Assembly: GCA_905250025.1 (NCBI GenBank)
Contig: CAJNOJ010000208.1
Span: 1-64,000 of the forward strand
Origin: Adineta ricciae
Lineage: Eukaryota > Rotifera > Eurotatoria > Adinetida > Adinetidae
Length of the DNA stretch: 64,000 nt
Reading direction: 5' to 3'
A program made the position numbers and the translations under genes. The notes beneath the pieces were generated by a model. It was given only the letters and a program-made list of their open reading frames with translations, was not told where the DNA came from and made no database searches. This document shows, one piece after another, positions 34,170-55,863 of this stretch (its first letter is position 1; every line of letters begins with the position of its first letter).

Positions 34170-34391
34170 TACGGTTGGGTGAGCACAGACGCATCGTAGT
34201 TTTGTGGCAACTTATCCTATATGATGTTTACGATTTTAAATTTTCTTTAATAAATATGAATGAGTAAAAAGTCGCTCACAATGCTGCGTAGCTTAGTTTT
34301 TAGAAAATAAATGACGGGAAAAGATTCCCAAGCCTTCAAAAATAAAAGTAATACACTAGAAAAAGCAAGCACGTCATCATGTTAGATGTCA

Positions 34392-36089: not shown

Positions 36090-39000
36090 TTATTGATTAG
36101 TTGTCATGGCATATTGTGTTTTACCCGAAAGTCCTTGTATTTTCGTCCATGTTTTATATAATTCATTTTCCAACGTTGTTGTGAATGGAATGCTTACATC
36201 TGTGTAATAATAGCTGACGACTTTCTTCGATTTGAATTCTCCAATCTCGTGAGCTAAATACTGAACAATTTTCGATTTCGTATGCGCGTCGAGTTTCTCG
36301 TCGAGAACGAATTGTGTGATGATTTTTAACGTTTCATAAACTTTAATTGCACTTTCATTTGTTAAAGATTTCAACAAGTCGTCGACAAATTCGTTCGAGG
36401 ACAGATGTATTAGCGGCATTCCAATAGTTGTATATTCTTTGACAAGATTTTCGTCGAATAGTGCGCTCAAAACATCGATAATGATCCGATGATCTGGTAA
36501 ATCGATTGCTGCAAGTAAAATAAAAGCGCTTCCACGTGCGGGGAAGTACGGATGGTGATGAATCGTCTTCACTAGAAGTTTGATCATTTGGAATTTATCA
36601 AATTTTTGATTATTCGTGATTTTCCGATACAGATAGTCTTCTTTTTGCACACATGCTGCTACTAAACTTAGTAAATTATCAGTAATCATTAATGAATATA
36701 TTGAATCATCACATTCGTCGAACATGAACAGTTTTTGTATTAACCATTGTATTAAATTCTCCAGAATTGCTAGAGTAATATGAATGTTCTCGATTCGCTG
36801 TAGTATTTCTCTGTTCAATTCCATGACGGAAACACGAAAATTACAAAAACTGATATCTTGCATTCGATCGTAAGTAGTTCGATGGAAATTTTCCACTTGC
36901 GTTGTACATTGATCGATTAGTTTCGATTCAAGATTCATAAAATAAAATTCATCATTCAAATCGGCTGAAACACAAATTTCCTCCAGAATAAAGTCGATTA
37001 CCTGCAATTCTCGCCTGGTAAGATATACTTTCTCACTAAATCGTGTTGTATCTACAGTGGCCAATACAACGGCGAATTGTTGCCATTGATCCTGTCGAAT
37101 TCTTCCATTGATCGTTAAATTCATCACTGAATGGAGTAATTCTTCTATATAAGAAGCATCTGTTGATAGTTGAGCTGAGTTTATCAGAGCATTCCAAGTT
37201 TGTTGATTGATGAATTTTATTCGATGAAAGAACCACATTCTTCCTGGCCTCACGGGTTTTTCTTCTTTCAATTTCGCTACACTTTTCTGCAAATTTTCGA
37301 AGATCTCCGGATCATCCCAGAGAACATCTGAGAAAAAGCTGCGCAGATAAATTTTAACACGCGGAAGATGCTCCATGGATGCAGTCTGTAGAATTTTCAA
37401 TACTGTTCTTTCTCCTAAGACAGAGATTCTTTTACTTGGTGTCGTCGGATCTCGTTCGGGATGTTGGAAGACTCGTTGGGCTCGATATCTCATCTGGTCA
37501 TTATCTATTTTGAACAAATCCACGATCGTATCGATTGCTGATTCGAAAATGTATTTGCTTTCTGCCAGCAACAGAGCAGCTAATTTGTTGATTTTCTTGT
37601 CGTGATAATCAGTAAACCATCGTTGCACGATTGGCAGAACTTCATTCGATGGTTTGATGATATACGGATATAAAACCGAGATGGCATCTCCTCTTCCTTG
37701 TTGAATTAATTCATCTATAATAACGGCGACCTGCGGAGTGAGAAACAATTCATCTACTAAACCAATTTTCAATAGTTTTTCAAGGTGCGACTGATTGTCG
37801 ACATCTCGATAGAGGTTTATCCAAAGACGAGTCAAGCTTTCATCTTCCCCAATCATCATTTTTGCATCATTCAAGTTTGTAAAGAGTCGAAATAGACATT
37901 CCAATTGATTGTTGGTGGAAAGATCCTTGTACTTTTGAGTACATAGAATTTTCCCGTAGAGTCCATGGACAAAGTTTCTGTGTGTTTCACTCTGAAGATT
38001 GTTAATGATCAAGTTTAACGTGTCGTGAAGATCAGTGTAGATAGACATAAGGGGTTTTAACTTGACGAGAAGTCTGATTTTATCTCTATTTTCATCCATG
38101 TGACTCAAAAATTCCAACGCGTGTGTTAAATATTTTTTGCGAAAGTCACCTGATCCGTAAAACGCTAATCGGATTGATGCGATCGTGCGATCATGAAGAT
38201 GCTCGATCTGATTCCATGTGGAAACCAATTCTCGAATGATCGTTTGAGTGAATGCATTTTGATTTGTTTGTTTGACTTGTAGGACTGCATATATTTTTTC
38301 TAAAACTTGAAACCGCAAGCTTGCCTCTGCAATAATTTTGGTTTGATCGAACGCTTCACTGAGAAGTTCCAGATTTCGTTCATCATCATACTGCGCAAAT
38401 TGATATAATGCTCTTGCTTTATAGTATGGATTAGACATTGATGAGATCCTTGCCATGAGGAATTCTTTTATGTTCACCTCATCTGTTACATCAACAAGTA
38501 ATTTCGCATAGATGTTCGTGATATTTAAGTCTTTTGAGATAACTCCGAAGACTAGTAGGATAATCGATGGAATCAGTTCCGGGTTGCGAACGAAATATCC
38601 ATCACGGATGAAAATGTCACAGATAGTTTCGAGAGCGATGGTCAGGTTCGGATGCATGTTTTCCAGACAGTTGAAGAATGCAATTGGAATATCATCTGTT
38701 TGAATCAGTCGAAAAGAAAACATATCCATTGGCCATGAGTATTCTCGAAGTGGCTTGTAAATCTGAACTGCGTCATTGATTTTTAAAAACGATTGAATAA
38801 GTACATCGCTGTTCATTGATTTCATACATGTATCTAAACATTTTCTAACATCATGCTCCATTTGACCGCGAAAACTGTCCGTCAATTTGAAAGCGAAGTA
38901 TTCGGCGTATAGAGCATATTTATCATTGAGATCTTCTACGGTATCAGCTAATGCACTCGTATCTAATGGTAATCCGCCACTATTAGCAACTGAAGATAAA

Positions 39001-42000
39001 TGGATCGTGCAATAATCAGCAAATTTCAAATCACAGCCACGAGTGTTTGTTTTTACATGATTATAAGTGTTGAGAAGATGTGGTATCATGTACGATGATG
39101 ATCTGGCGATGGGATCCTTCAGGACAGAGATAGTCTGCTCCAATCTACCAACCAAATGTTTGATAAATACGTCATCTTCGTTCTTGATTGTCATTTTGAC
39201 AAAATCGAAGTCTTCTAACACGATCAATACTAGAAATGCTTCGATTTTCGAACCAAGACAACACTGCTGAGTATCAATCTGTTGTCGAAATTCATTCACT
39301 AAGTCGCTCTTAGGTCGTTGTTTCGCCAGTAATTCGCAAATTTTTGTTGTATGAAACGATTCTTTATAAATATCATCTGTACTAATTGTTGGCAAATCAT
39401 ACCAATGATTGTCATTTTCTATCTTATCAGCATGTACAGCCATATTGTAGGCCGGATCTTCTACACCCCAAATATTTTGAAAGTAAAACAGAAACGGTGC
39501 TCTTTCACTGCCACTTAAACAAAGGAATAAACCCAATCGATTAAGCTCTGCGATTGTTGATGCAACATTGTGATTCTTGTGTCCACCGTAAAGTGCAATT
39601 ATCAAACATAGCCACTCCGAATCAGCTTTGACAAAGTTTAGCAAGTCAACGTTCGTGAGAAATTTATGTTTAACTATCAATTGACTTGTCACCGCTGAAT
39701 CTTTGACTTCAGTAGAATAATATCGTAAAAGTGCATCGATCGGCCAATTCCAAACATGTGAGTCGTAGTGTAGATTTTGTAGAAATGTCTCATGAAATTT
39801 CGGGCAATACCATTTCAATTGATGGATTATATTCGCACATGGTGCTAAATGTTGTTTGTCGTGAAGTTTTTCGTTGAACCATCCGATCATTGTTAGGATC
39901 GATATTTTGTTCAGTTTCGAGAAATAGAAGTGAATTAATTCTTGATGCTCTTTTAATCTTGAGAAGCCTGATAGATCTTTGTAATCCGATAATAACATAT
40001 CAGCCAATACGCGAATCATTTGACGTTGACTGCATGTCGATGGAAAATAGATATCACTCAACGAATCGATTATAACAAATGGAACGATCAATGCTGAGAC
40101 TGATGAGGTTTGTTCGTGTGCTAATAGTCTTGTAAGAATTCTATCGAATAATCCATTCTCCCGATGATATTTACTTAGGATTCCGAATGTCATGTGAAGA
40201 GGAACTCGCCAATTGGGAACATCGATTTTGTTTCGAATCGTCTGGAAGATGACATCTTCCGATCGCTGGATGCCATTGGAATAGACAATATTTTTCGCGG
40301 CGAGATATTCTTGAAATGTTCGATGGATGAACCGAAAACTGTTATACCCAAATTCATTCAACAAACCAACTTTATATTTGAATATGTCGACAAGTTTTGA
40401 CGTGGAGTCCTCCGCATCATTGAAAACCTTTTGTTTCTGAATAATATCTCTCAAACTATTCTCCGACAAACCATCAACTCGACTGTGAAGATAGTCCGCG
40501 ATATCTTGCAATATTGTCCATAGCATAGTCACAGTTAATCGAAGATCTTGATGAAGTGAAGAAGTGACCAATCGTTCGATCATTTTCTCAATTGCTTTGT
40601 CATACAAATCGATTCGCTTCTCCGGTAGTTTATCATCGTATTGATTATACACTGCAGCAATTACACTCGCTAACTGCGGATTAATTGCCAGTTGAAAAAT
40701 ATCTTTATTCTCTGTGATATCCGTATACAATTGACTGGCTAATGATTCATCGATGGCTTCTCCTCGGATACATTTCGTATACGAACTACAAAACATTTTC
40801 AACGCTTCATTCGACATGTCTTGAATGGTTAATCTTGGAATGTAGAAGTTAATCTCTTCGAAATAGTTCCCTTCAATTCGACTGGTAATAATCACACGAT
40901 TCCCAATGGTTGGATCTTTAGTGTTGTTGATTTCCTTTTGTTCATGAAGTGAATAAATCAATTTTCCAGATTTTACGTCGTAGTCAATACTTCGTTCTAA
41001 TAGCATGTTGATCTCTTTCATCAAATCGCTTCGGTCAACATGAGCCGGAACTTCATCTAGCCCTTCGAAGATAATCAGAACGTTTCCATGTAATATATAT
41101 TCAGTCATCAGCAATGAAAGATCTTCTCGTTCTTCTTTGGTAAACAACAACGAGTTCATCGTGCTGTTTTCTTGTAGAAATTGAAGTAAACTTCGTTTTT
41201 GTTGTTTGGAATTGTCTTTTATCTGATCAACATATTTCCATATGGGAATTAGTATCGGTATTTTCTCCTTCATGCGATGGTCATTCTTGTTGAAAAGCTT
41301 ATTTGTCTTTCCTAAACATTGTTGAGCCATGTTTATCACCAACCATTTGGATATTGTGGTTTTTCCTGAACCTGGATGACCTAAAACAATGAAATGCTTG
41401 AATTCGTTGTATGCTTGTTGAATTTGATATTGTTTTGCTTCGGTGAGATTGTTGTTTCCAAGAATTTCTCGTTTCAAACGTGAGATTTTACCCTTGATAA
41501 CACTCGCTTCATCTAAAGAAAAGATTTCTCGATTGTTGAGTAGAACGTCTAGCCATTGATCGACCATGAGATCTCGATAGATGGTCTCCGGATTGAACGA
41601 ATGTCGTTCAAAAATCGCTTGAATTAATTTGCTTTTTTCATTCGAGGTAAAAAATCCGTTGGATAAAACCTTTCGTTTGAATTCTTCGTTCATATCCAAC
41701 GCTTTCATTGCTTTTATCGATGGATGTGTTGGATCAAATTTCAATTCAACGTACACACTTTCTAACGGAAGAGAAATATCGTTATTCGCAGAGCCAAAGA
41801 TCGAGACATGTCCGTACTCTTGAATCATATAGTTCAAATATTTCTGACGAACGAGTTCTTGGCGACTAGCAAATGGCAAGTTCTCTCGTCGAAATGTCGA
41901 AAACGACGAGAGATTTTTAGTAAATAGAATCAGATCATCAAATGTATTACCGTAAGGAATTTCGATGATATTTTCTAAGACGGAATATTTAATATTCGAT

Positions 42001-42719
42001 CGTACGAGTTTGTAGATAGTGGGACAATGTGGTGCTGTGATATCAGATATCCATTGCAGAAGTTTACAGAAACTTGGATCGAGTATACCGGTTCCATATC
42101 CAATGAATAGTAAAGTTTTACCTTGAGTAAGTGTTTTTAGTTTTACTTTGGCAAACTTATTCTCATGAAGTTTGTTATAATCATCACTGTTAAAGACCAC
42201 CGTGTCTGTATGTCGAAAACTACCATGTACGTGTAGAATGAAGTCTTTTATGTCTATCGATGGATCTTCGTATTGATATCGACTCCATGTTAACGTACCT
42301 TTGTTGAGCAAATCTCCCAGAAGTGAGTCATAATTTGTTGTTAAGATCGGGCAGTTTAATTCCGCGATAGCCTTCATCATGTCAGGCTTTTGTGGGTGTA
42401 ATTCTCCGAGCGTGTTTATCAACCATTCTTCATACGCATTAGGATGCTTACTAAACCAATGTTTGATTTGATCAGCAATACTTAAATAATCATTCAGTTT
42501 TGTTATGTTAGCGTCCAACTTGCTCATCATATCCTGAAAATTTGCGTCATCGATTTCATTCAAGAGGTAACATTGTCGAAGTCCTTGTTTTAATAATCCT
42601 TTCCAAAAACAAACATTTTCATCGCCATTTGCTGTGTAAACTGATACATCCGAGCCGACGAACACCAGCACATTATTTGCAGCAATATCTTTCTTCAGCT
42701 TTTGAATCTCGTCCACCAT
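36090..42719 (-). CDS. Giant SIR2-like / NACHT (STAND) protein with helical repeats, copy 1
   Basis: Single 6.6-kb exon, 2209 aa from the ATG at 42719. Residues 1-270 form a SIR2-like NADase domain: VLVFVGSDVS (19-27), ILTTNYDSLL with catalytic-type Asn129, LHVHGSF with His165, VVFNSDDY, and LLFIGYGTGILDPSF. A NACHT NTPase follows: Walker A LGHPGSGKTT (447-455), Walker B LIIFEGLDEVP (548-558), VIITSR sensor (610-614) and winged-helix-like FRFIHRTFQEYLAA. The remaining 1400 residues are alpha-helical repeats that would sense a ligand. In bacteria this order is seen in STAND (Avs, SIR2-STAND) anti-phage effectors that degrade NAD+ on activation. An innate-immune role here is inference. The absence of introns contrasts with most neighbours. 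Confidence 0.88.
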   Translation of the reverse strand: MVDEIQKLKKDIAANNVLVFVGSDVSVYTANGDENVCFWKGLLKQGLRQCYLLNEIDDANFQDMMSKLDANITKLNDYLSIADQIKHWFSKHPNAYEEWLINTLGELHPQKPDMMKAIAELNCPILTTNYDSLLGDLLNKGTLTWSRYQYEDPSIDIKDFILHVHGSFRHTDTVVFNSDDYNKLHENKFAKVKLKTLTQGKTLLFIGYGTGILDPSFCKLLQWISDITAPHCPTIYKLVRSNIKYSVLENIIEIPYGNTFDDLILFTKNLSSFSTFRRENLPFASRQELVRQKYLNYMIQEYGHVSIFGSANNDISLPLESVYVELKFDPTHPSIKAMKALDMNEEFKRKVLSNGFFTSNEKSKLIQAIFERHSFNPETIYRDLMVDQWLDVLLNNREIFSLDEASVIKGKISRLKREILGNNNLTEAKQYQIQQAYNEFKHFIVLGHPGSGKTTISKWLVINMAQQCLGKTNKLFNKNDHRMKEKIPILIPIWKYVDQIKDNSKQQKRSLLQFLQENSTMNSLLFTKEEREDLSLLMTEYILHGNVLIIFEGLDEVPAHVDRSDLMKEINMLLERSIDYDVKSGKLIYSLHEQKEINNTKDPTIGNRVIITSRIEGNYFEEINFYIPRLTIQDMSNEALKMFCSSYTKCIRGEAIDESLASQLYTDITENKDIFQLAINPQLASVIAAVYNQYDDKLPEKRIDLYDKAIEKMIERLVTSSLHQDLRLTVTMLWTILQDIADYLHSRVDGLSENSLRDIIQKQKVFNDAEDSTSKLVDIFKYKVGLLNEFGYNSFRFIHRTFQEYLAAKNIVYSNGIQRSEDVIFQTIRNKIDVPNWRVPLHMTFGILSKYHRENGLFDRILTRLLAHEQTSSVSALIVPFVIIDSLSDIYFPSTCSQRQMIRVLADMLLSDYKDLSGFSRLKEHQELIHFYFSKLNKISILTMIGWFNEKLHDKQHLAPCANIIHQLKWYCPKFHETFLQNLHYDSHVWNWPIDALLRYYSTEVKDSAVTSQLIVKHKFLTNVDLLNFVKADSEWLCLIIALYGGHKNHNVASTIAELNRLGLFLCLSGSERAPFLFYFQNIWGVEDPAYNMAVHADKIENDNHWYDLPTISTDDIYKESFHTTKICELLAKQRPKSDLVNEFRQQIDTQQCCLGSKIEAFLVLIVLEDFDFVKMTIKNEDDVFIKHLVGRLEQTISVLKDPIARSSSYMIPHLLNTYNHVKTNTRGCDLKFADYCTIHLSSVANSGGLPLDTSALADTVEDLNDKYALYAEYFAFKLTDSFRGQMEHDVRKCLDTCMKSMNSDVLIQSFLKINDAVQIYKPLREYSWPMDMFSFRLIQTDDIPIAFFNCLENMHPNLTIALETICDIFIRDGYFVRNPELIPSIILLVFGVISKDLNITNIYAKLLVDVTDEVNIKEFLMARISSMSNPYYKARALYQFAQYDDERNLELLSEAFDQTKIIAEASLRFQVLEKIYAVLQVKQTNQNAFTQTIIRELVSTWNQIEHLHDRTIASIRLAFYGSGDFRKKYLTHALEFLSHMDENRDKIRLLVKLKPLMSIYTDLHDTLNLIINNLQSETHRNFVHGLYGKILCTQKYKDLSTNNQLECLFRLFTNLNDAKMMIGEDESLTRLWINLYRDVDNQSHLEKLLKIGLVDELFLTPQVAVIIDELIQQGRGDAISVLYPYIIKPSNEVLPIVQRWFTDYHDKKINKLAALLLAESKYIFESAIDTIVDLFKIDNDQMRYRAQRVFQHPERDPTTPSKRISVLGERTVLKILQTASMEHLPRVKIYLRSFFSDVLWDDPEIFENLQKSVAKLKEEKPVRPGRMWFFHRIKFINQQTWNALINSAQLSTDASYIEELLHSVMNLTINGRIRQDQWQQFAVVLATVDTTRFSEKVYLTRRELQVIDFILEEICVSADLNDEFYFMNLESKLIDQCTTQVENFHRTTYDRMQDISFCNFRVSVMELNREILQRIENIHITLAILENLIQWLIQKLFMFDECDDSIYSLMITDNLLSLVAACVQKEDYLYRKITNNQKFDKFQMIKLLVKTIHHHPYFPARGSAFILLAAIDLPDHRIIIDVLSALFDENLVKEYTTIGMPLIHLSSNEFVDDLLKSLTNESAIKVYETLKIITQFVLDEKLDAHTKSKIVQYLAHEIGEFKSKKVVSYYYTDVSIPFTTTLENELYKTWTKIQGLSGKTQYAMTTNQ

Positions 42720-42942
42720 GTTACACAAATGTTCATGTAAAATTTCAACCGAACAAGTCCTTTTATTCGTGCGATGTATCTATCGCAGAAAGAAAGTAAA
42801 CACATATTCACATGTTGGAAAGAATCATGCATGACACATTTCTTCCTAGGAAGAAAAAAATTGTTCTTTCTTTCTGTTTATTAACGTCATGTAATGTGGC
42901 TTTTTCCAACGACAACAAAAAAAAACTAGTTTCTTTTTCTTT

Positions 42943-44649
42943 TTAAATCCATATAAGAATATTACACGTGCATTTGGGATTGCGAATAACTACACATCCC
43001 GTCGGTAAATGATCTTTTAACCAAAGCGTTCGTTCATCTTCGTTCATCTCTGTATGTACGAACTGTTCATCTCGACATCGCACATTTAACACTCGAAGTT
43101 TCGACATGTTTTCGATCAACGAGATGATGCATTGACAATCTGCAACTAAAACTGATAACTTCTCACATTGTTCGCCTAAAGGCGATAGACTTAATTTCAA
43201 ACAATCTTGCTTATCGAAGCAACAGCTCATATCAAGAAGATCAAGTTCACGAATTGATGCATTCGTGTATTTGAATAGCGACGTTGCTAAAATGGTTGGT
43301 TCTTGTTGGCAAATACTCAATCGATAGAGATTGGGTGTTCGCTTGAGTAATGCCTGTACTTGTGATCGAAACGTATGCGTATGTGACATGATTTTTAATG
43401 TTTGTAATTGATTTAAATTTGGAGTTGCCGTCCAAAATCTTTCATCGATTGGAAGAGATATATGAAGTTCCTTTAATTTCGTAAAATACGCATTCGAAAA
43501 CATCGTCGCACTGAGCATTTCGTAGGAGGAAATTTTCATTAGTGCGTAGTTGATGTCTCGTTCATCATCGTGTGGATCAGTTGAGTTGAATGTTAGTGGA
43601 ATATTCTCTTCAAATATTTTCGATATACTGTATACATAGAACCGCCGGGCTGATGTTAGGCAACGAACAAACCAACGGCGTTCATCGATCCAGAAAGCAG
43701 TTCGGTATGAGTTGAACAATGTCTGGAAACGAGCTACCGGATCTTGTTGCGGGGATAACACCATTTTCATTTTTAATCGAAGAGTTTCAAGTTTAGGTAA
43801 ATGATTGGAAATGATCGTTTCCAAGTCATTACCATTAACAATTTCACATGATAAATCTATGGATAATTGTTGAAGATTGGGCAGATTTTCTAATAGACGA
43901 CTCATATTCGATGCATCGCACTTCACAACTGAATGAATATTCAAATTGGTCACAGTCGGAAGCGGCGCTGGTTGGTATTGACTATCAACGAATGACAGTA
44001 CAGATAATGACAGGCGTTGAAGGTTTGGTGTGAATTCGAATAATTGATTGATTTGTTTCAGTTCGATCAGAAGTTTTTCGAACGATAAAGATTTGAGTGT
44101 CGATGAAATGACTGTTGGCGTGCAAAAGACACATTGTCGTTTGACTGCAATTCCAAGTGTGCAATGAGTTAGTTTTTCTAACGACCAAATTTGATTGATG
44201 ATCGATTGAAAATCGACACAATCATCTTGAAGATAACAGTTGGAGAAAGTGAGTTGAGTTAAGTTTGAAAGTTGAAAGCATCCTTGGAGAATTTGCGTTA
44301 GTATTGCATGCGAACGAAGATATGATATGGAAAGAATTTTCAATTGGCTGAGTTCCTGAAATGATGATAGAGATGAAAGAAATAGTTCGATTTGTCTGGG
44401 AGTTTCTTCACTATCGGAGAGATGAAAACTGCTGATGTATTTCGACATTGTTGGGAAGTGGGATCGGCAGAGAATGTCGAAGTAGCGTTTTGATACTAAA
44501 TGCAAATCGACGGTACAAGTGGGAAATCTTTCGTGAAGAACCATATTGATTCGACAGTTGAGACCATAGAATATACGAAGAAGATCGATACCATTGAAAT
44601 ATTCGAAGATATCGAGTAAAATCTCGTTTGGTAACAATTCAAAACTCAT
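42943..44649 (-). CDS. F-box / leucine-rich-repeat-like protein, copy 1
   Basis: Single exon, 568 aa from the ATG at 44649. An F-box opens the protein (FELLPNEILLDIFEYFNGID, residues 3-22). Irregular leucine-rich segments follow (LTQLTFSNCYLQDD, LPKLETLRLKMKM, LNQLQTLKIMSHTH, LYRLSICQQEP) up to residue 530. F-box proteins recruit substrates to SCF ubiquitin ligases via Skp1. This layout (F-box plus degenerate LRRs) is greatly expanded in bdelloids. It lies about 220 bp upstream of the SIR2-NACHT gene and in the same orientation, in both blocks. Substrate unknown. Confidence 0.82.
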   Translation of the reverse strand: MSFELLPNEILLDIFEYFNGIDLLRIFYGLNCRINMVLHERFPTCTVDLHLVSKRYFDILCRSHFPTMSKYISSFHLSDSEETPRQIELFLSSLSSFQELSQLKILSISYLRSHAILTQILQGCFQLSNLTQLTFSNCYLQDDCVDFQSIINQIWSLEKLTHCTLGIAVKRQCVFCTPTVISSTLKSLSFEKLLIELKQINQLFEFTPNLQRLSLSVLSFVDSQYQPAPLPTVTNLNIHSVVKCDASNMSRLLENLPNLQQLSIDLSCEIVNGNDLETIISNHLPKLETLRLKMKMVLSPQQDPVARFQTLFNSYRTAFWIDERRWFVRCLTSARRFYVYSISKIFEENIPLTFNSTDPHDDERDINYALMKISSYEMLSATMFSNAYFTKLKELHISLPIDERFWTATPNLNQLQTLKIMSHTHTFRSQVQALLKRTPNLYRLSICQQEPTILATSLFKYTNASIRELDLLDMSCCFDKQDCLKLSLSPLGEQCEKLSVLVADCQCIISLIENMSKLRVLNVRCRDEQFVHTEMNEDERTLWLKDHLPTGCVVIRNPKCTCNILIWI

Positions 44650-45206
44650 GATGGTTATCGTCTTTTCGTGCACGTTGTTTTTTTTTTGTGTAATGTATTA
44701 TAAATCAACACGGTGTGTTGTGCAAGATCATTTTTTTCCTTTCTTCCAACAAAGATGACGTATCCGAATGACACATACTGTTGTAAAGAGAAATCAAAAT
44801 CGTTATTCATGTGAACTGTGACGTGCGTTTTGTTTTGCTTTATTATAGCGCTTGTAAAAGCTTTTTTTTCGAATTGCGGTGTGGGATTCGTGCAACATTC
44901 GTTGAAATTTTAGTACGAGATAGATCGTTTTTAAGAGTGGAACTCGGGCGGATACGATACAATCTCGCAGTTCTGGTTCACCAATAGGAAGTTGCCATGT
45001 GAGTACATTAGAAAACTTTCGCACAGTTCGTGTGTTCCTACTCTATGCTTAGATTTCCCTATATCATCGATATTTTATTTTTGGAATAGTATTATATACG
45101 TCATCGCCTGTTCGTCAGTACTGTAGATAAAGTAAACTAAGAATTTTTATTGTTCTTATGATATGAATTCAAAAGAAAAATAAATTGAAAATGACTTTAT
45201 TATTGG
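44650..45206. other. Intergenic, repeated in part at 57571-58030
   Basis: Spacer between F-box and cathepsin-like genes. It is about 100 bp longer than in block 2 because of extra sequence near 45020-45130. Nothing coding is supported. Confidence 0.5.
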
Positions 45207-45898
<692 letters not shown>

Positions 45899-45899
45899 N
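45899..45899. other. Single ambiguous base (N) at a block junction
   Basis: The only N in the window. Left of it is the interior of a cathepsin-L exon on the minus strand, and right of it the interior of a Hint coding sequence on the plus strand. Both genes are cut mid-codon-sequence here, as expected for an artificial or gap-closed join. Confidence 0.95.
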
Positions 45900-46124
45900 T
45901 CAAACTATGCCACTGTGAGCAATCATGCTTTGGCCCACTTCTTCATGGGTGCATATCGGTGGTGGGTGAATGTTATGGGATCGCCGTCACCATCTGAGAA
46001 GGTGCATTGGTTAGTGGAGATGATGCAGTATGTTGAAGGTATGATTCGATGGTGTGGTGCAGGGATCTGGAGTGGCTATGAAGTATATGATGGTGTGTTT
46101 CAAGTGTCATCCATTGTGATGTGA
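45900..46124 (+). pseudogene. 3' fragment of Hog/Hint gene, copy 3
   Basis: Seventy-five codons identical or nearly so to the ends of Hint copies 1 and 2 (SNYATVSNHALAHFF to VFQVSSIVM). The Hint catalytic Cys and His lie upstream and are absent. The fragment begins directly at the N at 45899 and opens block 2. Confidence 0.8.
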
Positions 46125-46524
46125 GGTTCAGTCAACATCGCGTTTGGTGAGAAGGACTAACTTGTTTTTGTTTCCTAATGATGTTTTATTGACACTGTGT
46201 AAAACTGTTTCAATTGCACTGTTTTTCAATACTATGCCTTCGCTGATAAAACCGCTTCTCCATCCTTGTCTAACTTTTTATCTTTTTAGATTGTATTCGA
46301 TCGAAGATTCCAACCGAAGAAATAAATTATTTGTCGAAAACGTTGAGTAGTTTTTCAAGTGATTTTCCTAAAAGCAAGTAAAGATTGTTTAAAACGAGTA
46401 AGTGAAGAATGCATCCTATCTCGTAATGTTGAGCAGTCGAATATTACTTCCGCTCCAGTCGTTTGTGCTAGTCAATTTTTTGCTGTTCTCAATGTATTTA
46501 TCAGTGTATTTTTAGATTGGTAAA
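46125..46524. other. Intergenic, repeated at 33083-33512
   Basis: Spacer equivalent to that in block 1, slightly shorter. Nothing coding is supported. Confidence 0.5.
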
Positions 46525-47184
46525 ATGGCGCGAAATACTGGAACATTTGCACGATCGATGGCATCGCAATTTCGTGCAATGTACATATCTACTATCGTAG
46601 TTCTCATAATCCTCCCGTTGTTCTCAGCTCTCCCATTGGCGTCTTTGGTTGTTGGAATTACGAAAATAAAGGAATGTCCGATACAACCAAAGATACCAAC
46701 ATATATGATTGTATTTGGGGCAGTTGGCTTTGCTCTTTGTATCGTGATCATTTCCATTGTTAGTAATTAATATCTATTTTTTCGTACGATAACAGATGTC
46801 GTATCATCACTATTGTATTTTTCGTAGATTCTGACAAGAGCAATATGTTGCTACAAATCTGGAGACGATTCTAGATGTGAAGTCACGGCTCTAATCTCTT
46901 GCGGTGCTGCTATTCCACTCTTCTTGTTCTTTTTCGCATGGTTCGTCGTAGTGAGTAGGTCGTATTTCAGCTTCTTATACGTGTACATGTTTTCATAGGG
47001 CTGTGTGTGGGTGTTCAACGTGCGTGCTCAAGTTCAGTTCGATTATGCAGACAAATCTGATTACTGTGACCGATCTCTGTACAATTTTGCATACTGCGTC
47101 CTTATAGCACAATACAATGTCATGTTTTGTATTTGCTGCATATGCTATGGTTGTGGTCAGTCTTCCAACAAGAGTTCAAGTTAA
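46525..47184 (+). CDS. TMEM272-like four-span membrane protein, copy 2
   Basis: Three exons (46525-46758, 46828-46950, 46999-47184) give 180 aa, the same as copy 1 apart from a few substitutions (for example a Ser to Ala near the N terminus and Tyr to Cys near the C terminus). Intron 1 is 69 bp against 66 bp in copy 1; intron 2 is 48 bp in both. AATAAA follows at about 47264. Both copies are intact, so both are probably functional. Confidence 0.78.
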
Positions 47185-47410
47185 TACGGTTGGGTGAGCG
47201 CAGACGCATTGTAGTTTTGTTGCAACTTATCCGATACGATGTTTACGATTTTAAATTTTCTTTAATAAATATGAATGAGTAAAAAGTCGGTCGCAATGCG
47301 TGCTACGTAGCTTAGTTTTTAGAAAGTAAATGACGGGAAAAGATTCCCTAGCCTTCAAAAATAAAAATAATACACTAGAAAAAGCAAGCAAGTCATCATG
47401 TTAGATGTCA

Positions 47411-48583
47411 TTACTCTTTTAAATTGTGCGCGATCGTTACAGCTGCTACTTTTGGAGTTGGTATGTAAGTGAGGGTGATACGATATTCACCATTTTTAGA
47501 GTCGACTTTGATTTCTCTGACAGAAAACAAAGTGAATGGTAATAGAAGTACTTCTTCTTCATCTTGATGAACTGATAATGCTGGTAACTTTTCCGAGATC
47601 CTATTTAAATTGATCGCAGTCGGACAGGTCTCTGAGAAATCGAAGATCAGTATTACTCGATTTCGACGATCATATCTTGGTCGCTCTGACTGGGTAAACC
47701 TTCGAGCAACAGATTCGTTCAAAGACATGGATTGTATAGTGCGAGTTTCGAGAACTTGTTCTGGTCGCTGTAGTGCCCAACGATAGGCTTGAATATCATT
47801 CTCCGTCATTCGCCCACCTCGGTATGCTCGACCCTTGTAAGCACGATCTTTCAGTTCTGCCAAATGTAAATAAATCAGGGTGGCAAATGAATCAGCCTCG
47901 TTTTGTAAAGTACGATACAATGGAGTCTCGAGGGTGTACATTGTAAGAAGAGATGACATATCTGACTTCTTCCTGACTTTTTCATGTAGCCTCTTTGCAT
48001 TTTCATACTGTTGATGTTCATTTGGAATCGTTCTTGACACGAGCTGTTCAAGCTGCTCCTTACTCTCTGCTTCTATTCGATTCTGAACCAGTTTCTTGAA
48101 TACGCCTGACGAATCTGCTATTGCATGCATGAACTGTGATTCGTAAGCTGTGTTTGCTGTTGTGTGACCTTTGAACCAATCATCTGGTATGCCGTCTTTC
48201 ATGTCAACACTGTTACCCTTGGGGTTGGCCAGTTGAAATGTTTGGGTCATGTGCTCATCGACGAATCTGCCCGATGCTGGTCGATTGAATAATGCTCGAA
48301 TTTCATCAGTAGATGCTTCTTCATATGCTGTGGCTCCATGACGATTCAAAGTTGTACGTGAACATCCATTTTCGAGAAGCAGTTGAACAATATGTGGGTG
48401 ATTATAGAATACGGCTGCATGAAGAGCTGTACTTCCGAGAGGCTCAAGTTGATTAACTTGTTCGTAGGTCATGTTTGGGAGCATTTGGCGAACTGCTGCT
48501 ATATCACCTTCTTTGCATGCCCAATAAAACAGACTAGCTTCTCCAATTTTGAATCCGGTCTTCTTAAATGCACCATTACCCAT
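47411..48583 (-). CDS. Ankyrin-repeat / mono-ADP-ribosyltransferase fusion, copy 2
   Basis: Single exon, 390 aa, MGNGAFKK start (again a myristoylation-type N terminus although residues 4-12 differ from copy 1). Ankyrin repeats and all three ART motifs are kept: AYRGG, QSMSLNESVA, DEEEVLLLPF. Differences from copy 1 cluster in the first 12 residues and just after the Ser motif (RRFTQSERPRYD against RSFIQPERQRHD). The catalytic residues are unchanged, suggesting retained activity. Confidence 0.85.
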   Translation of the reverse strand: MGNGAFKKTGFKIGEASLFYWACKEGDIAAVRQMLPNMTYEQVNQLEPLGSTALHAAVFYNHPHIVQLLLENGCSRTTLNRHGATAYEEASTDEIRALFNRPASGRFVDEHMTQTFQLANPKGNSVDMKDGIPDDWFKGHTTANTAYESQFMHAIADSSGVFKKLVQNRIEAESKEQLEQLVSRTIPNEHQQYENAKRLHEKVRKKSDMSSLLTMYTLETPLYRTLQNEADSFATLIYLHLAELKDRAYKGRAYRGGRMTENDIQAYRWALQRPEQVLETRTIQSMSLNESVARRFTQSERPRYDRRNRVILIFDFSETCPTAINLNRISEKLPALSVHQDEEEVLLLPFTLFSVREIKVDSKNGEYRITLTYIPTPKVAAVTIAHNLKE

Positions 48584-49018
48584 TCCAGCAGTATTATTTT
48601 GTTGTACGTCTTAGAGAATATTTATTATCAACAATACTTCGTCCTCAGATATACGAATGTTGAATAAGAATAAAGATAAGAAACAGTAAATGTTTTGTAA
48701 GCGATGAAAATGTAATAGAAATGGCATATGTATTTAAGGTGAGTCAAGTTGGAAAGCAAATAAAAGTAAAGTCAACATCGTATTTGAGTGTTCTTCCTTT
48801 GAAATCTTGAAGATGTGAGCGTGATTCTCCTATGGAAATCCGAAATTGGTAGGAACTGAGGTTCGAAATATGTGACAACGCGGTCAAATGATTTAATTCC
48901 GTAATATACAACACTAGGACATAGAACATATTCTCCTTTTGTCATGATATTCACTAAACGTCTTTATATTTCGAAAAAAAACAGTTTGTCGTATCTTTAC
49001 ATTGTCCTGATCGTTTAT
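48584..49018. other. Intergenic, repeated at 35565-36089
   Basis: Spacer equivalent to block 1 but lacking about 80 AT-rich bases next to the SIR2-NACHT stop. Nothing coding supported. Confidence 0.5.
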
Positions 49019-52000
49019 TTATTGATTAGTTGTGATGGCATATTGTGTTTTACCCGAAAGTCCTTGTATTTTCGTCCATGTTTTATATAATTCATTCTCC
49101 AACGTTGTTGTGAATGGAATGCTTACATCTGTGTAATAATAACTGACGACTTTCTTCGATTTGAATTCTCCGATCTCGTGGGCTAAATATTGAACAATTT
49201 TCGATTTCGTATGCGCGTCAAGTTTCTCATCGAGAACGAACTGTGTGATGATTTTTAACGTTTCATAAACTTTAATTGCACTTTCATTTGTTAAAGATTT
49301 CAACAAGTCGTCAACGAATTCGTTTGAGGACAGATGTATTAACGGCATTCCAATTGTTGTATATTCTTTGACAAGATTTTCGTCGAACAGTGCGCTCAAA
49401 ACATCGATAATGATCCGATGATCAGGTAAATCGATTGCGGCGAGTAAAATAAAAGCGCTTCCACGTGCGGGGAAGTACGGATGGTAATGAATCGTCTTCA
49501 CTAGAAGTTTGATCATTTGGAATTTATCAAAGTTTTGATTATTCGTGATTTTTCGATAGAAGTAGTCTTCTTTTTGCACACAAGCTGCCACTAAACTTAG
49601 TAAATTATCAATAATCATTAATGAATATATTGAATCATCGGATTCGTTGAACATGAGCAGCTTTTGTATTAACCACTGGATTAAATTCTCCAGAATTGTT
49701 AGAGTAATGGGAGTGTTCTCGATTCGCTGTAGTATTTCTTTGTTCAGTTCCATGACGGAAACACGAAAATTACAAAAACTGATATCTTGCATTCGATCGT
49801 AAGTAGTTCGATGAAAATTTTCCACTTGCGTTGTACATTGATCGATTAGTTTCGATTCAAGATTCATAAAATAAAATTCATCATTCAAATCGGCTGAAAC
49901 ACAAACTTCCTCCAGAATAAAGTCGATTATATGCAATTCTCGCCTGGTAAGATATACTTTCTCGCTAAATCGTGTTGTGTCTACAGTGGCCAATACAACG
50001 GCGAATTGTTGCCATTGATCCTGTCGAATTTTTCCATTGATCGTTAAATTCATCACTGAATGAAGTAATTCTTCTATATAAGAAGCATCTGTTGATAGTT
50101 GAGCTGAGTTTATCAGAGCATTCCAAGTTTGTTGATTGATGAATTTTATTCGATGAAAGAACCACATTCTTCCTGACCTCACGGGTTTTTCTTCTTTCAA
50201 TTTCGCTACACTTTTCTGCATATTTTCGAAGATTTCCGGATCATCCCAGAGAACATCTGAGAAAAAGCTGCGTAGATAAATTGTAACACGCGGAAGATGT
50301 TCCATGGATGCAGTTTGTAGAATTTTCAATACTGTTCGTTCTCCTAAGACAGAGATTTTTTTACTTGGTATCGTCGGATCTCGTTCGGGATGTTGGAAGA
50401 CCCGTTGCGCTCGATATCTCATCTGGTCATTATCTATTTTGAACAAATCCACGATCGTATGGATCGCTAATTCGAAAATGCATTTGCTTTCTGCCAGCAA
50501 CAGAGCAGCTAATTTGTTGATTTTCTTGTCGTGATAATCAGTAAACCATCGTTGCACGATTGGCAAAACTTCATTCGATGGTTTGATGATATACGGATAC
50601 AAAACCGAGATGGCATCTTCTCTTCCTTGTTGAATTAATTCATCTATAATAACGGCGACCTGCGGAGTGAGAAACAATTCATCGACTAAACCAATTTTCA
50701 ATAGTTTTTCAAGGTGCGACTGATTGTCGACATCTCGATAGAGGTTTATCCAAAGACGAGTCAAGCTTTGATCTTCCCCAATCATCATTTTTGCATCATT
50801 CAAATTTGTAAACAGTCGAAACAGACATTCCAATTGATTGTTGGTGGAAAGATCCTTATACTTTTGAGTACATAGAATTTTCCCGTAGAGTCCATGGACA
50901 AAGTTTCTGTATGTTTCATTCTGGAGATTGTTAATGATCAAGTTTAACGTGTCTTGAAGATCAGTGTAGACAGACATAAGGGGTTTTAATTTGACGAGAA
51001 GTCTGATTTTATCTGTATTTTCATCCATGTGACTCAAAGCTTCCAACGCATGTGTTAAATATTTTTTGCGAAAGTCACGTAATCCGTAAAACGCTAATCG
51101 GATTGATGCGATCGTGCGATCATGAAGATGCTCGATCTGATTCCATGTGGAAATCATTTCTCGAATGATCGTTTGAGTGAATGCATTTTGATTTGTTTGT
51201 TTGACTTGTAGGACTGCATATATTTTTTCTAAAACTTGAAACCGTAAGCTTGCATCTGGGATAATTTTGGCTTGATCGAACGCTTCAGTGAGAAGTTTCA
51301 GATTTCGTTCGTCATCATACTGCGCGAATTGATATAATGCTCTTGCTTTATAGTATGGATTAGACATTGATGAGATCCTTGCCATGAGGAATTCTTTTAT
51401 GTTCACCTCATCTGTTACATCACCAAGTAACTTCGCATAGATGTTCGTGATATTTAAATCTTTTGAGATAACTCCGAAGACTAGTAGGATAATCGATGGA
51501 ATCAGTTCCGGGTTGCGAACGAAATATCCATCACGGATGAAAATGTCACAGATAGTTTCGAGAGCGATGGTCAAGTTCGGATGAATATTTTCCAGACAGT
51601 TGAAGAATGCAATTGGAATATCATCTGTTTGAATCAGTCGAAAAGGAAACCTATCCATCGGCCATGAGTATGCTCGAAGGGGCTTGTAAATCTGAACTGC
51701 GTCATTGATTTTTAAAAACGATTGAATAAGTACATCGCTATGCATTGATTTCATACATGTATCTAAACATTCTTTAACATCATGCTCCATTTGACCGCGA
51801 AAACTGTCCGTCAATTTGAAAGCGAAGTATTCGGCGTACAGAGCATATTTATCATTGAGATCTTCTACAGCATCAGCTAATGCACTCGTATCTAATGGTA
51901 ATCCGCCACTATTAGCAACTGAAGATAAATGGATCGTGCAATAATCAGCAAATTTCAAATCACAGTCACGAGTGTTTGTTTTTACATGATTATAAGTGTT

Positions 52001-55000
52001 GAGAAGATGTGGTATCATGTGCGATGACGATCTGGCGATGGGATCCTTCAGGGCAGAGATAGTCTGCTCCAATCTACCAACAAAATGTTTGATAAATACG
52101 TCATCTTCGTTCTTGATTGTCACTTTGACAAAATCAAAGTCTTCTAACACAATCAATACTAGAAATGCTTCGATTTTCGAACCAAGACAACACTGCTGAG
52201 TATTAATCTGTCGTCGAAATTCATTCACTAAATCGCTCTTAGATCGTTGTTTCGCCAGTAATTCGCAAATTTTTGTAGTATGAAACGATTCTTTATAAAT
52301 ATCATCTGTACTAATTATTGGCAAATCATTCCAATGATTACCATTTTCTATCTTATCAGCATGTACAGCCATATTGTAGGCCGGATCTTCTACACCCCAA
52401 ATATTTTGAAAGTAAAACAGAAACGGTGCTCTTTCACTGTCACTTAAACAAAGGAATAAACACAATTGATTAAGCTCTGCGATTGTTGATGCAACATTGT
52501 GATTCTTGTGTCCACCATAAAGTGCAATTATCAAACATAGCCACTCCGAATCAGCTTTGACAAAGTTTAGCAAGTCAACGTTCGTGAGAAATTTATGTTT
52601 AACTTTCAATTGACTTGTCACCGCTGAATCTTTGACTTCAGTAGAATAATATCGTAAAAGTGCATCGATCGGCCAATTCCAAACTTGTGAGTCGTAGGGT
52701 AGATTTTGTAGAAATGTCTCATGAAATTTCGGACAATACCATTTCAATTGATAGATTATATTCGCACATGGTGCTAAATGTTGTTTGTCCTGAAGTTTTT
52801 CGTTGAACCATCCGATCATTGTTATGATTGATATTTTGTTCAGTTTCGAGAAATAGAAGTGAATTAATTCTTGATGCTCTTTTAATCTTGAGAAGCCTGA
52901 TAGGTCTTTGTAATCCGATAATAACATATCAGCTAATATGCGAATCATTTGACGTTGACTGCATGTCGATGGAAAATAGATATCACTCAACGAATCGATT
53001 ATAACAAATGGAACGATCAATGTTGAGACTGATGAGGTTTGTTCGTGTGCTAATAGTCTTGTAAGAATTCTATCGAATAATCCGTTTTCTCGATGATATT
53101 TACTTAAGATTCCGAATGTCATGTAAAGAGGAACTCGCCAATTGGGAACATCGATTTTGTTTCGAATCGTCTGGTAGATGACACCTTCCGATCGTTGGAT
53201 GCCATTAGAATAGACAATATTTTTCGCGGCGAGATATTCTTGAAATGTTCGATGGATGAATCGAAAACTGTTATACCCGAATTCATTTAACAAGCCAACT
53301 TTGTATTTGAATATGTCGACAAGTTTTGACGTAGAGTCCTCCGCATCACTGAAAACCTTTTGTTTCTGAATAATATCTCTTAAATTACTCTCCGACAAAC
53401 CATCGACTCGACTATGAAGGTATTCCGCGATATCTTGCAATATTGTCCATAGCATAGTCACAGTTAATCGAAGATCTTGATGAAGTGAAGAAGTGACCAA
53501 TCGTTCGATCATTTTCTCAATTGCTTTGTCATACAAATCGATTCGCTTCTCCGGTAGTTTATCATCGTATTGATTATACACTGCAGCAATTACACTCGCT
53601 AACTGCGGATTAATTGCCAGTTGAAAAATATCTTTATTCTCTGTGATATCCGTATACAATTGACTGGCTAATGATTCATCGATGGCTTCTCCTCGGATAC
53701 ATTTCGTATACGAACTACAAAACATTTTCAACGCTTCATTCGACATGTCTTGAATGGTTAATCTTGGAATGTAGAAGTTAATCTCTTCGAAATAGTTCCC
53801 TTCAATTCGACTGGTAATAATCACACGATTCCCAATGGTTGGATCTTTAGTGTTATTGATTTCCTTTTGTTCATGAAGTGAATAAATCAATTTTCCAGAT
53901 TTTACGTCGTAGTCAATACTTCGTTCTAATAGCATGTTGATCTCTTTCATCAAATCGGTTCGGTCAACATGAATCGGAACTTCATCTAGTCCTTCGAAGA
54001 TAATTAGAACATTTCCATGTAATATATATTCAGTCATCAGCAATGAAAGATCTTCTCGTTCTTCTTCGGTAAACAACAACGAGTTCATCGTGCTGTTTTC
54101 TTGTAGAAATTGAAGTAAACTTCGTTTTTGTTGTTTGGAATTGTCTTTTATCTGATCAACATACTTCCATATGGGAATTAGTATCGGAATTTTCTCCTTC
54201 ATGCTATGGTCATTCTTGTTGAAAAGCTTATTTGTCTTTCCTAAACATTGTTGAGCCATGTTTATCACCAACCATTTGGATATTGTGGTTTTTCCTGAAC
54301 CCGGATGACCTAAAACAATAAAATGCTTGAATTCGTTGTATGCCTGTTGAATTTGATATTGTTTTGTTTCGGTGAAATTGTTGTTTCCAAGAATTTCTCG
54401 TTTCAAATGTGAGATTTTACGCATGATAGCACTCGCTTCATCTAGAGAAAAGATTTCTCGATTGCTGAGTAGAACATGTAGCCATTGATCGACCATGAGA
54501 TCTCGATAGACGGCCTCCGGATTGAACGAATGTCGTTGAATAATCGCTTGAATTAATTTGCTTTTTTCGTTCGAGGTAAAAAATCCGTTGGATAAAACTT
54601 TTCGTTTGAATTCTTCGTTCATATCCAATGCTTTCATTGCTTTTATCGATGGATGTGTTGGATCAAATTTCAATTCGACGTACACACTTTCTAACGGAAG
54701 AGAAATATCGTTATTCGCAGAACCAAAGATCGAGACATGTCCGTACTCTTGAATCAGATAGTTCAAATATTTTTGACGAACGAGTTCTTGGCGAGTAGCA
54801 AATGGCAAGTTCTTCCGTTGAAATGTCGAAAACGACGAGAGACTTTTAGTAAATAGAATCAGGTCATCGAATGAGTTACCGTAAGGAATTTCTATGATAT
54901 TTTCTAAGACGGAATATTTAATATTCGATCGCACGAGTTTGTAGATAGTGGGACAACGTGGTGCTGTGACATCAGATATCCATTGCAGAAGTTTGCAGAA

Positions 55001-55648
55001 ACTTGGATCGAGTATACCGGTTCCATATCCAATGAATAGTAAAACTTTGCCTCGAGTAAGTGTTTTTAGTTTTACTTCGGCAAAATTATTCTCATGAAGT
55101 TCGTTATAGTCATCACTATTAAAGACGACTGTATCTGTATGTTGAAAATTACCGTGTACGTGTAGAATGTAGTCTTTTATGTCTATCGATGGATCTTCGT
55201 ATTGATATCGACTCCATGTTAACGTACCTTTGTTGAGCAAATCCCCCAGAAGTGAATCATAGTTTGTTGTTAAGACTGGGCAGTTTAATCCTGCGATAGC
55301 TTTGATCATGTTAGGCTTTTGTGGGTGTAATTCTCCAAGCGTGCTTATCAGCCATTCTTCATACGCATTAGGATGCTTGCTAAGCCAATGCTTGATTTGA
55401 TCAGCAATACTAAAATAATCATTCAGTTTTGTTATGTTAGCATCCAAGTTGCTCATTATATCCTGGAAGTTTGCATCATCGATTTCATTCAAGAGGTAAC
55501 ATTGTCTAAGTCCTTGTTGTAATAACCCTTTCCAGAAACAAACATTTTCATCGCCATTTGCTGTGTAAACTGATACATCCGAGCCGACGAACACCAGCAC
55601 ATTATTTGCAGCAATATCTTTCTTCAGCTTTTGAATCGCGTCCACCAT
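49019..55648 (-). CDS. Giant SIR2-like / NACHT (STAND) protein with helical repeats, copy 2
   Basis: Single exon, 2209 aa, ATG at 55648; the length is the same as copy 1 with no indels. All predicted catalytic and nucleotide-binding residues are kept: VFVGSDVS, LTTNYD (Asn129), HVHGNF (His165), FIGYGTGILDPSF, GHPGSGKTT, IIFEGLDEVP and IITSR. By eye, about 27 of the first 310 residues differ from copy 1, but only about nine of the 380 residues of the NACHT core. The effector end is therefore less conserved than the ATPase. Position and orientation relative to the F-box and ART genes are the same as in block 1. Confidence 0.88.
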   Translation of the reverse strand: MVDAIQKLKKDIAANNVLVFVGSDVSVYTANGDENVCFWKGLLQQGLRQCYLLNEIDDANFQDIMSNLDANITKLNDYFSIADQIKHWLSKHPNAYEEWLISTLGELHPQKPNMIKAIAGLNCPVLTTNYDSLLGDLLNKGTLTWSRYQYEDPSIDIKDYILHVHGNFQHTDTVVFNSDDYNELHENNFAEVKLKTLTRGKVLLFIGYGTGILDPSFCKLLQWISDVTAPRCPTIYKLVRSNIKYSVLENIIEIPYGNSFDDLILFTKSLSSFSTFQRKNLPFATRQELVRQKYLNYLIQEYGHVSIFGSANNDISLPLESVYVELKFDPTHPSIKAMKALDMNEEFKRKVLSNGFFTSNEKSKLIQAIIQRHSFNPEAVYRDLMVDQWLHVLLSNREIFSLDEASAIMRKISHLKREILGNNNFTETKQYQIQQAYNEFKHFIVLGHPGSGKTTISKWLVINMAQQCLGKTNKLFNKNDHSMKEKIPILIPIWKYVDQIKDNSKQQKRSLLQFLQENSTMNSLLFTEEEREDLSLLMTEYILHGNVLIIFEGLDEVPIHVDRTDLMKEINMLLERSIDYDVKSGKLIYSLHEQKEINNTKDPTIGNRVIITSRIEGNYFEEINFYIPRLTIQDMSNEALKMFCSSYTKCIRGEAIDESLASQLYTDITENKDIFQLAINPQLASVIAAVYNQYDDKLPEKRIDLYDKAIEKMIERLVTSSLHQDLRLTVTMLWTILQDIAEYLHSRVDGLSESNLRDIIQKQKVFSDAEDSTSKLVDIFKYKVGLLNEFGYNSFRFIHRTFQEYLAAKNIVYSNGIQRSEGVIYQTIRNKIDVPNWRVPLYMTFGILSKYHRENGLFDRILTRLLAHEQTSSVSTLIVPFVIIDSLSDIYFPSTCSQRQMIRILADMLLSDYKDLSGFSRLKEHQELIHFYFSKLNKISIITMIGWFNEKLQDKQHLAPCANIIYQLKWYCPKFHETFLQNLPYDSQVWNWPIDALLRYYSTEVKDSAVTSQLKVKHKFLTNVDLLNFVKADSEWLCLIIALYGGHKNHNVASTIAELNQLCLFLCLSDSERAPFLFYFQNIWGVEDPAYNMAVHADKIENGNHWNDLPIISTDDIYKESFHTTKICELLAKQRSKSDLVNEFRRQINTQQCCLGSKIEAFLVLIVLEDFDFVKVTIKNEDDVFIKHFVGRLEQTISALKDPIARSSSHMIPHLLNTYNHVKTNTRDCDLKFADYCTIHLSSVANSGGLPLDTSALADAVEDLNDKYALYAEYFAFKLTDSFRGQMEHDVKECLDTCMKSMHSDVLIQSFLKINDAVQIYKPLRAYSWPMDRFPFRLIQTDDIPIAFFNCLENIHPNLTIALETICDIFIRDGYFVRNPELIPSIILLVFGVISKDLNITNIYAKLLGDVTDEVNIKEFLMARISSMSNPYYKARALYQFAQYDDERNLKLLTEAFDQAKIIPDASLRFQVLEKIYAVLQVKQTNQNAFTQTIIREMISTWNQIEHLHDRTIASIRLAFYGLRDFRKKYLTHALEALSHMDENTDKIRLLVKLKPLMSVYTDLQDTLNLIINNLQNETYRNFVHGLYGKILCTQKYKDLSTNNQLECLFRLFTNLNDAKMMIGEDQSLTRLWINLYRDVDNQSHLEKLLKIGLVDELFLTPQVAVIIDELIQQGREDAISVLYPYIIKPSNEVLPIVQRWFTDYHDKKINKLAALLLAESKCIFELAIHTIVDLFKIDNDQMRYRAQRVFQHPERDPTIPSKKISVLGERTVLKILQTASMEHLPRVTIYLRSFFSDVLWDDPEIFENMQKSVAKLKEEKPVRSGRMWFFHRIKFINQQTWNALINSAQLSTDASYIEELLHSVMNLTINGKIRQDQWQQFAVVLATVDTTRFSEKVYLTRRELHIIDFILEEVCVSADLNDEFYFMNLESKLIDQCTTQVENFHRTTYDRMQDISFCNFRVSVMELNKEILQRIENTPITLTILENLIQWLIQKLLMFNESDDSIYSLMIIDNLLSLVAACVQKEDYFYRKITNNQNFDKFQMIKLLVKTIHYHPYFPARGSAFILLAAIDLPDHRIIIDVLSALFDENLVKEYTTIGMPLIHLSSNEFVDDLLKSLTNESAIKVYETLKIITQFVLDEKLDAHTKSKIVQYLAHEIGEFKSKKVVSYYYTDVSIPFTTTLENELYKTWTKIQGLSGKTQYAITTNQ

Positions 55649-55863
55649 GTTGCACAAATGTTTACTTAGAATTTCAACCGAACAAGTCCTTTTATTCGTG
55701 CGATTTGTCTATCGCAGAAAGTAAGTACATGTTCACATGTTGGAAAGAATTACGCATGACACAGTTGTTCCTAGGAAGAAAAACATTTTTCTTTCGTTCT
55801 GTTTATTAACGTCATATAATGTGGCTTTTTCCAACGACAACAAAAAAAAACTAGTTTCTTTTT

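Follow-up and report, generated by a model that had tools for sequence, protein, structure and literature searches.

Can a self-killing receptor of bacterial type be kept, duplicated and selected as a working gene of an animal? The question is raised by a 64,000-nucleotide stretch of the bdelloid rotifer Adineta ricciae (CAJNOJ010000208.1, positions 1 to 64,000; hereafter the window, from contig C208 in an assembly of 130 Mb), in which two neighbouring genes each encode a protein of 2209 residues that joins a SIR2 domain, a NACHT-type STAND nucleotide switch and a long alpha-solenoid. Both genes are intact and under purifying selection, and the scaffold that follows their SIR2 domain also occurs in bacteria with other effectors. 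They are probably two working genes of a bacterial-type, effector-swapping family of STAND receptors with a SIR2 effector, acquired and expanded in bdelloids and acting in the manner of Avs5; their catalysis, ligand, expression and immune role we infer by analogy.

Two open reading frames run from TTG codons on the minus strand (36090-42728 and 49019-55657; 2212 codons each). From the conserved ATG start each copy gives 2209 amino acids, and neither translation has an internal stop. The preliminary description had announced two intact, intronless copies, and these are indeed what the open frames and the full-length colinear homologs in other bdelloids indicate, the latter supporting a single-exon structure. 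Both copies belong to a segment of about 13 kb that is duplicated in direct tandem, its two units being 94-98% identical in DNA (self-BLAST).

36090..42719, minus strand: gene copy A, SIR2-NACHT-solenoid protein, 2209 amino acids plus stop, predicted single exon
49019..55648, minus strand: gene copy B, 2209 amino acids plus stop, architecture as in copy A
32852..45898, no strand: tandem duplication unit 1 (self-BLAST)
45894..58722, no strand: tandem duplication unit 2 (self-BLAST)

Over their 2209 codons, copies A and B, equal in length, are separated by 138 synonymous and 125 nonsynonymous changes, a ratio of nonsynonymous to synonymous rates (dN/dS) of 0.225, and both are under purifying selection. 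The genome holds six SIR2_2 loci, all of this protein type: the two in the window, one each on contigs C239 and C98, and two on C105. The C239 and C98 paralogs are intact (2202 and 2201 amino acids) and give a dN/dS of 0.226 (0.31 for the SIR2 part alone); with two separate pairs agreeing in this way, four of the six loci are intact and constrained. The C105 loci (234782-241914 and 251972-258764) are two tandem SIR2-STAND copies, each split into two frames, with single N bases nearby; one lacks a middle stretch, and the two are decayed or misassembled. Synonymous divergence between copies A and B reaches 17% within SIR2, against 9% elsewhere (Fisher p 0.0016), and gene bases 1903-2202 form a 300-base stretch with zero differences, a pattern such as gene conversion would give.

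The architecture named in the preliminary description, a SIR2-like effector followed by a STAND switch and a repeat sensor, is supported by both profiles and models. The modules run in the order SIR2_2 (residues 1-278), an NLR-type NACHT-HD-WHD region (about 280-945) and an alpha-solenoid of 1260 residues. All the motifs reported earlier are present, namely TTNYD (127-131), HVHG (163-166), the Walker A motif GHPGSGKTT and the Walker B motif FEGLDEVP, together with FIGYGTGILD (205-214), and both copies have the NAD-site residues Asn129, Asp131 and His165. Pfam SIR2_2 (PF13289) matches the two copies at E 1.5e-14 and 2e-12 (54.7 and 47.9 bits against a curated cut-off of 24.5). NPHP3_N is likewise over its curated cut-off in both (E 5.7e-06 and 3.9e-06), with nSTAND3 and NACHT itself under theirs. 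The Walker motifs and a modelled NLR-type NBD-HD-WHD fold, matched by NOD2, NLRP3 and NLRC4, mark a STAND protein of NACHT type. The roughly 1400 helical residues first estimated fit the predicted structure of residues 1012-2209, an all-helical solenoid with a mean predicted local distance difference test score (pLDDT) of 87.3 and a predicted template modelling score (pTM) of 0.87. The earlier view of an animal NLR-like receptor stands in part: the module fold is NLR-like and the mechanism would fit, but the Pfam scan returned no leucine-rich repeat (LRR) family at E<=1, the C-terminal part being modelled as all-helical solenoid instead.

41886..42719, minus strand: copy A, SIR2_2 domain, residues 1-278
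42333..42335, minus strand: copy A, Asn129 codon in TTNYD (Asn in 40/40 aligned rows with a sufficiently full SIR2 domain)
42225..42227, minus strand: copy A, His165 codon CAT in the HG motif
41445..41885, minus strand: copy A, linker, residues 279-425, with conserved LPLESVYVELKFDPTHPSIKAM (alignment)
40770..41444, minus strand: copy A, NACHT nucleotide-binding domain, residues 426-650
41355-41381, minus strand: copy A, Walker A
41046-41075, minus strand: copy A, Walker B
39885..40769, minus strand: copy A, HD1-WHD-HD2-like region, residues 651-945 (FIHRTFQEYLAA), from fold matches to NOD2, NLRP3 and NLRC4, borders approximate
36093..39884, minus strand: copy A, alpha-solenoid, residues 946-2209, putative sensor (model of 1012-2209; HEAT/ARM-type matches)
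54815..55648, minus strand: copy B, SIR2_2 domain
55262-55264, minus strand: copy B, Asn129 codon
55154-55156, minus strand: copy B, His165 codon CAC
53699..54373, minus strand: copy B, NACHT domain
49022..52813, minus strand: copy B, alpha-solenoid, colinear with copy A and 95% identical over residues 1012-2209

The type recurs in other bdelloids. A first homolog search returned 47 proteins: one the window's own, and 24 named Adineta or Rotaria, under eight names (A. steineri, A. ricciae, A. vaga, R. sordida, R. socialis, R. magnacalcarata and Rotaria sp. Silwood1 and Silwood2). Species-named full-length SIR2-type homologs are all Adineta or Rotaria, and no other animal appears among the species-named proteins of this search, in which many of the 47 carry no species name. 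Six further proteins (P0033, P0037, P0039 and P0041-P0043) are 36-41% identical and bear no species name; P0044-P0047 are distant and either bacterial or without a species name. Hidden Markov model matches to the linker were found in P0039 (5.9e-32), P0044 (3.2e-04) and P0062 (9.9e-04).

Beyond the SIR2 domain, the remainder of the protein is shared with bacteria. We built a scaffold profile from residues 860-2209, beyond the NACHT core, with 20 rows (12 from this genome or bdelloid-named, 8 unnamed but bdelloid-like); it matched 13 of 30 homologs or loci at E<1e-10, among them P0033, P0037, P0039 and P0041, close relatives that bear no species name, and 4 of 16 in a second target set, run without shuffled controls. 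For the first set, 30 shuffled controls gave zero matches to any of seven profiles. Among bacteria the scaffold carries a CHAT domain in Phormidium tenue FACHB-1052 (2e-92), TIR plus DUF4062 in Ktedonospora formicarum SOSP1-1 (2.5e-53) and a caspase family domain in WP_015217806.1 of Anabaena cylindrica PCC 7122 plasmid pANACY.03 (2.4e-91); Pfam backs these effectors, DUF4062 slightly under its cut-off. Proteins from Thermoanaerobaculia metagenome-assembled genomes bear CHAT (P0049) and TIR (P0054), and further members, without species names, bear a phosphoesterase (P0048), a kinase (P0074), TIR (P0050) and SIR2 (P0062). Short bacterial SIR2-NACHT proteins (L023, L027, L075 and L079) were not matched by the solenoid profile. 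Because bacteria have the same NACHT-solenoid scaffold behind other effectors, the relation to bacteria goes beyond the analogy to Avs drawn at the outset. That analogy holds for the module order. PADLOC gave no Avs-named match at E<=1 (only LmuA on the SIR2 part, and mad8), the library's Avs5 content being unchecked. Directly upstream of the Phormidium gene lie a Double-GTPase-like gene and a WD40 gene (L008, 3153-5860). Around the Anabaena gene (L097), at distances of up to about 8 kb, are transposase, recombinase and integrase genes, so the scaffold can reside on mobile DNA.

In a scaffold tree (LG+G4, midpoint root with the root not inferred, long branches flagged), P0039, P0037, P0041 and P0033 join the bdelloid types (100/100) and stand separate from proteins with other effectors; P0062, with SIR2 on the scaffold, falls outside the bdelloid clade, its own placement being weak. 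The preliminary description had pointed to animal FAM118 proteins as another home of the SIR2-like domain, and in the PDB the SIR2 part indeed finds its best sequence match in FAM118B. SIR2 trees, however, do not group it with the bdelloid type. In the best tree the bdelloid-type domains group with P0039 (100/99); next to them come a Micromonospora SIR2 helicase (92/79) and bacterial SIR2-NACHT proteins, and FAM118B lies outside, weakly attached to a long branch. When that long row is removed, support for the Micromonospora join is 70/63, and FAM118B is then drawn to the long branch of P0062. An approximately unbiased (AU) test does not reject a clade that unites FAM118B with the bdelloid type (p 0.108).

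The SIR2 site itself is variable at one catalytic position. Of 46 aligned rows, 40 cover at least 220 of 275 SIR2 columns, and Asp131 and Gly166 are, like Asn129, invariant in all 40. As P0003, a protein named Adineta ricciae, is identical to the C98 protein over all 2201 residues, these rows represent 39 distinct homologs, in which position 165 is His in 21, Tyr in 15, Phe in 2 and Gln in 1, thus replaced in 18. A tree of 30 rows built without the SIR2 part requires 7 changes at this position, at least 6 forced by well-supported branches, counts that cannot separate gain from loss. The His165 codons are CAT and CAC in the window copies, and C239 and C98 have TAT (Tyr). In Avs5, an HG-to-NG swap is found in about half of the proteins with function retained, and Asn works at this site whereas Ala or Gln abolished protection (available text of PMC12931631); a change at position 165 may therefore or may not mean loss.

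How might such a protein act, and where did it come from? The mechanism is drawn from the matched families, in which a solenoid senses, NACHT exchanges nucleotide and assembles, and SIR2 cuts NAD+. In the rotifer protein a ligand derived from an intruder or from damage would bind the solenoid, exchange of ADP and ATP in the NACHT switch would allow molecules to come together, NAD+ would be hydrolysed by the SIR2 domains so clustered, and the cell would be shut down or killed. A bdelloid ancestor may have taken the gene from a bacterium, or from another lineage holding it, with multiplication later in bdelloids. Uptake from bacteria or through an intermediate, before the Adineta/Rotaria split, is the simplest reading, since the bacterial scaffold carries many effectors, the named animals with it in the homolog search are bdelloids only, and bdelloids are known for foreign genes, according to the available part of PMC11258130. 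This origin is a provisional reading: P0039 bears no species name, the tree was rooted at its midpoint, and the AU test does not separate the SIR2 part statistically from FAM118B. More tentatively, and with rather less confidence than in the main reading, we suggest that bdelloids took over a whole bacterial receptor with its SIR2 NADase and made of it a multigene innate immune family, in which copies would switch between catalytic His and Tyr at the HG motif (CAY and TAY codons, across the four intact A. ricciae copies), giving active and pseudo-enzyme receptors that may cooperate.

Several observations weigh against a bacterial-type, NAD+-cutting receptor of this kind. In phylum samples of drawn genomes, two candidates scored per genome, matches at E<=1e-100 came from only 4 of 244 genomes in the Phormidium phylum and, for the Ktedonospora phylum, from 4 of 251, and in each sample the query genome alone had the whole scaffold, others matching only linker and NACHT; with one whole-scaffold genome per sample, the scaffold is rare and patchy in the bacteria sampled. 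PADLOC at E<=1e-5 matched two of nine chosen neighbours of three bacterial members, both uninformatively (one a WD40 protein hit by a HEAT-ARM model, the other a weak match to mad8). The nearest outgroup, P0039, bears no species name. The N-terminal model has a pTM of 0.57, leaving the domain arrangement uncertain, and in the window copies the first of the glycine-rich loops has a degenerate form (GSDVS, not GxGxS). Tyr replaces the catalytic His in A. steineri, A. vaga, C98 and C239, whereas the window copies keep it; with the Adineta branch thus mixed, either His was regained or Tyr arose more than once. Mean pairwise identity over 17 rows is lowest for SIR2 (0.50, against 0.72 for NACHT and 0.52-0.57 for the solenoid), a profile unlike that of a sensor-driven receptor. 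Finally, the main text of a 2024 study of fungal attack on A. ricciae and A. vaga mentions neither NACHT, NLR nor SIR2 (text match).

The His replacements bear most directly on a rival in which the SIR2 part mainly does not deplete NAD+ but serves as a scaffold, filament former or maker of an NAD-derived signal, with signalling by assembly and His copies helping or regulating Tyr copies. At least six switches with Asn129 and Asp131 untouched, the continuing constraint on the SIR2 part of C239 and C98, and the filaments of FAM118B and the better NAD processing by FAM118A and FAM118B together (available text of PMC12700824) all suit it; yet His is retained in the window copies and in 19 further rows, and the Avs5 substitutions leave the meaning of a change ambiguous, so we regard it as somewhat unlikely. 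A non-immune task for the receptor, such as transposon control, desiccation stress or germline quality, draws on the fact that no result here links the protein to infection and on the silence of the fungal-attack study. We consider it unlikely, as the nearest folds are those of antiphage SIR2 proteins and animal NLRs, and a diverging multigene family suits conflict better.

Two further rivals concern origin. An animal FAM118-like SIR2 gene might have been fused to a STAND receptor in rotifers, giving an effector of animal descent, as the best PDB match and the AU value would allow. The best SIR2 tree, in which the bdelloid type keeps company with P0039 and bacterial proteins, argues against this, as do the weakly placed P0062, all six genomic SIR2_2 loci being of this one protein type, and the report, in the available text of PMC12700824, that FAM118 is vertebrate-specific; such a fusion is therefore quite improbable. 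Bacterial contamination or a decaying insert might be suspected from the single exon, the bacterial relatives and the two fragmented C105 copies. Against it stand a dN/dS of 0.22-0.23 in two pairs, an A. vaga homolog on an 18.1 Mb contig (P0005), a GC content resembling that of the flanks and eukaryote-type neighbours. Selection and homologs in several bdelloid assemblies lead us to reject contamination for the window copies, and we give this explanation next to no weight; the genes are those of an animal, as the preliminary description had held.

The neighbours in the window include ankyrin genes, F-box-like genes (below cut-off), a papain-type protease and Hint-module genes. Two genes for 576-residue proteins (42943-44673 and 55864-57594, minus strand) were duplicated along with the SIR2-STAND genes, the first with the F-box-like match. 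Twin genes at 30722-31537 and 32267-33082 (plus strand) share 635 bases at 96.5% identity (self-BLAST), the former with a Hint module (E 6.6e-32), and a 573-residue protein with Rieske and metallo-beta-lactamase-fold domains is encoded at 10231-11952 (plus strand). Genes of ADP-ribosyltransferase (ART) type lie near the SIR2-STAND loci in the window and on C239, C98 and C105: an ART domain (E 1.3e-06) immediately upstream of the C239 copy (L001, 34-852), a similar frame on C98, two ART matches at C105 226703-229761, and, in the window, ankyrin proteins at 34392-35564 and 47411-48583 (minus strand) with a sub-threshold ART tail (E 0.16-0.29). As the genome holds at least 150 ART matches (553 candidates), this proximity may be due to chance or to shared gene-family regions.

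If our reading is true, A. ricciae offers a natural experiment on how an animal copes with a self-killing receptor of bacterial type, here intact, duplicated and selected in a culturable species, and a single protein family makes it testable whether a transferred bacterial immune gene works as an animal receptor. It would also provide a defined scaffold on which SIR2, TIR, CHAT, caspase, phosphoesterase and kinase effectors are interchangeable, together with repeated His-to-Tyr switching at a residue regarded as nearly absolutely conserved in SIR2 domains.

Among known systems, ThsA, DSR2 and KomC resemble the rotifer protein in their SIR2 fold (modelled root-mean-square deviation about 3 A over about 245 residues), with switch and sensor parts that differ from its own. 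Animal NLRs share the predicted NACHT-HD-WHD fold, but the rotifer protein has no detected LRR, and where an NLR has CARD or PYD as its effector it has one of enzyme type. Avs5 (AVAST type 5), whose SIR2 domain lowers NAD+ upon phage sensing (available text of PMC12931631), is alike in its SIR2-STAND-repeat order; its HG variant is Asn whereas that of the rotifer family is Tyr, and, in contrast to Avs5, which was compared by description rather than in alignments or trees, the rotifer solenoid is common to bacterial CHAT, TIR and caspase proteins. Effector swapping on a single receptor is familiar from bacterial conflict systems, and those described in the available text of Kaur et al. 2021 (PMC8195603) likewise combine one system with many alternative effectors, including SIR2 and TIR; its main text has no mention of rotifers or Adineta (text match). 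The SAMD9 family of animals and actinomycetes also joins a Sir2-like domain to a STAND-like NTPase, with transfer from bacteria proposed, but as described in the available part of PMC5445408 it has AlbA_2 first and TPR and OB-fold after, and neither an AlbA_2 nor an OB-fold Pfam match was found at E<=1 in the window proteins. FAM118A and FAM118B share the SIR2_2 fold and the pocket Asn and His, but the FAM118B PDB chain is 371 residues without STAND or solenoid, against 2209 with both. Set beside these systems, what is new here is a variant, a family of bacterial-type SIR2-STAND receptors carried by an animal, with a mechanism that is plausible by analogy to them.

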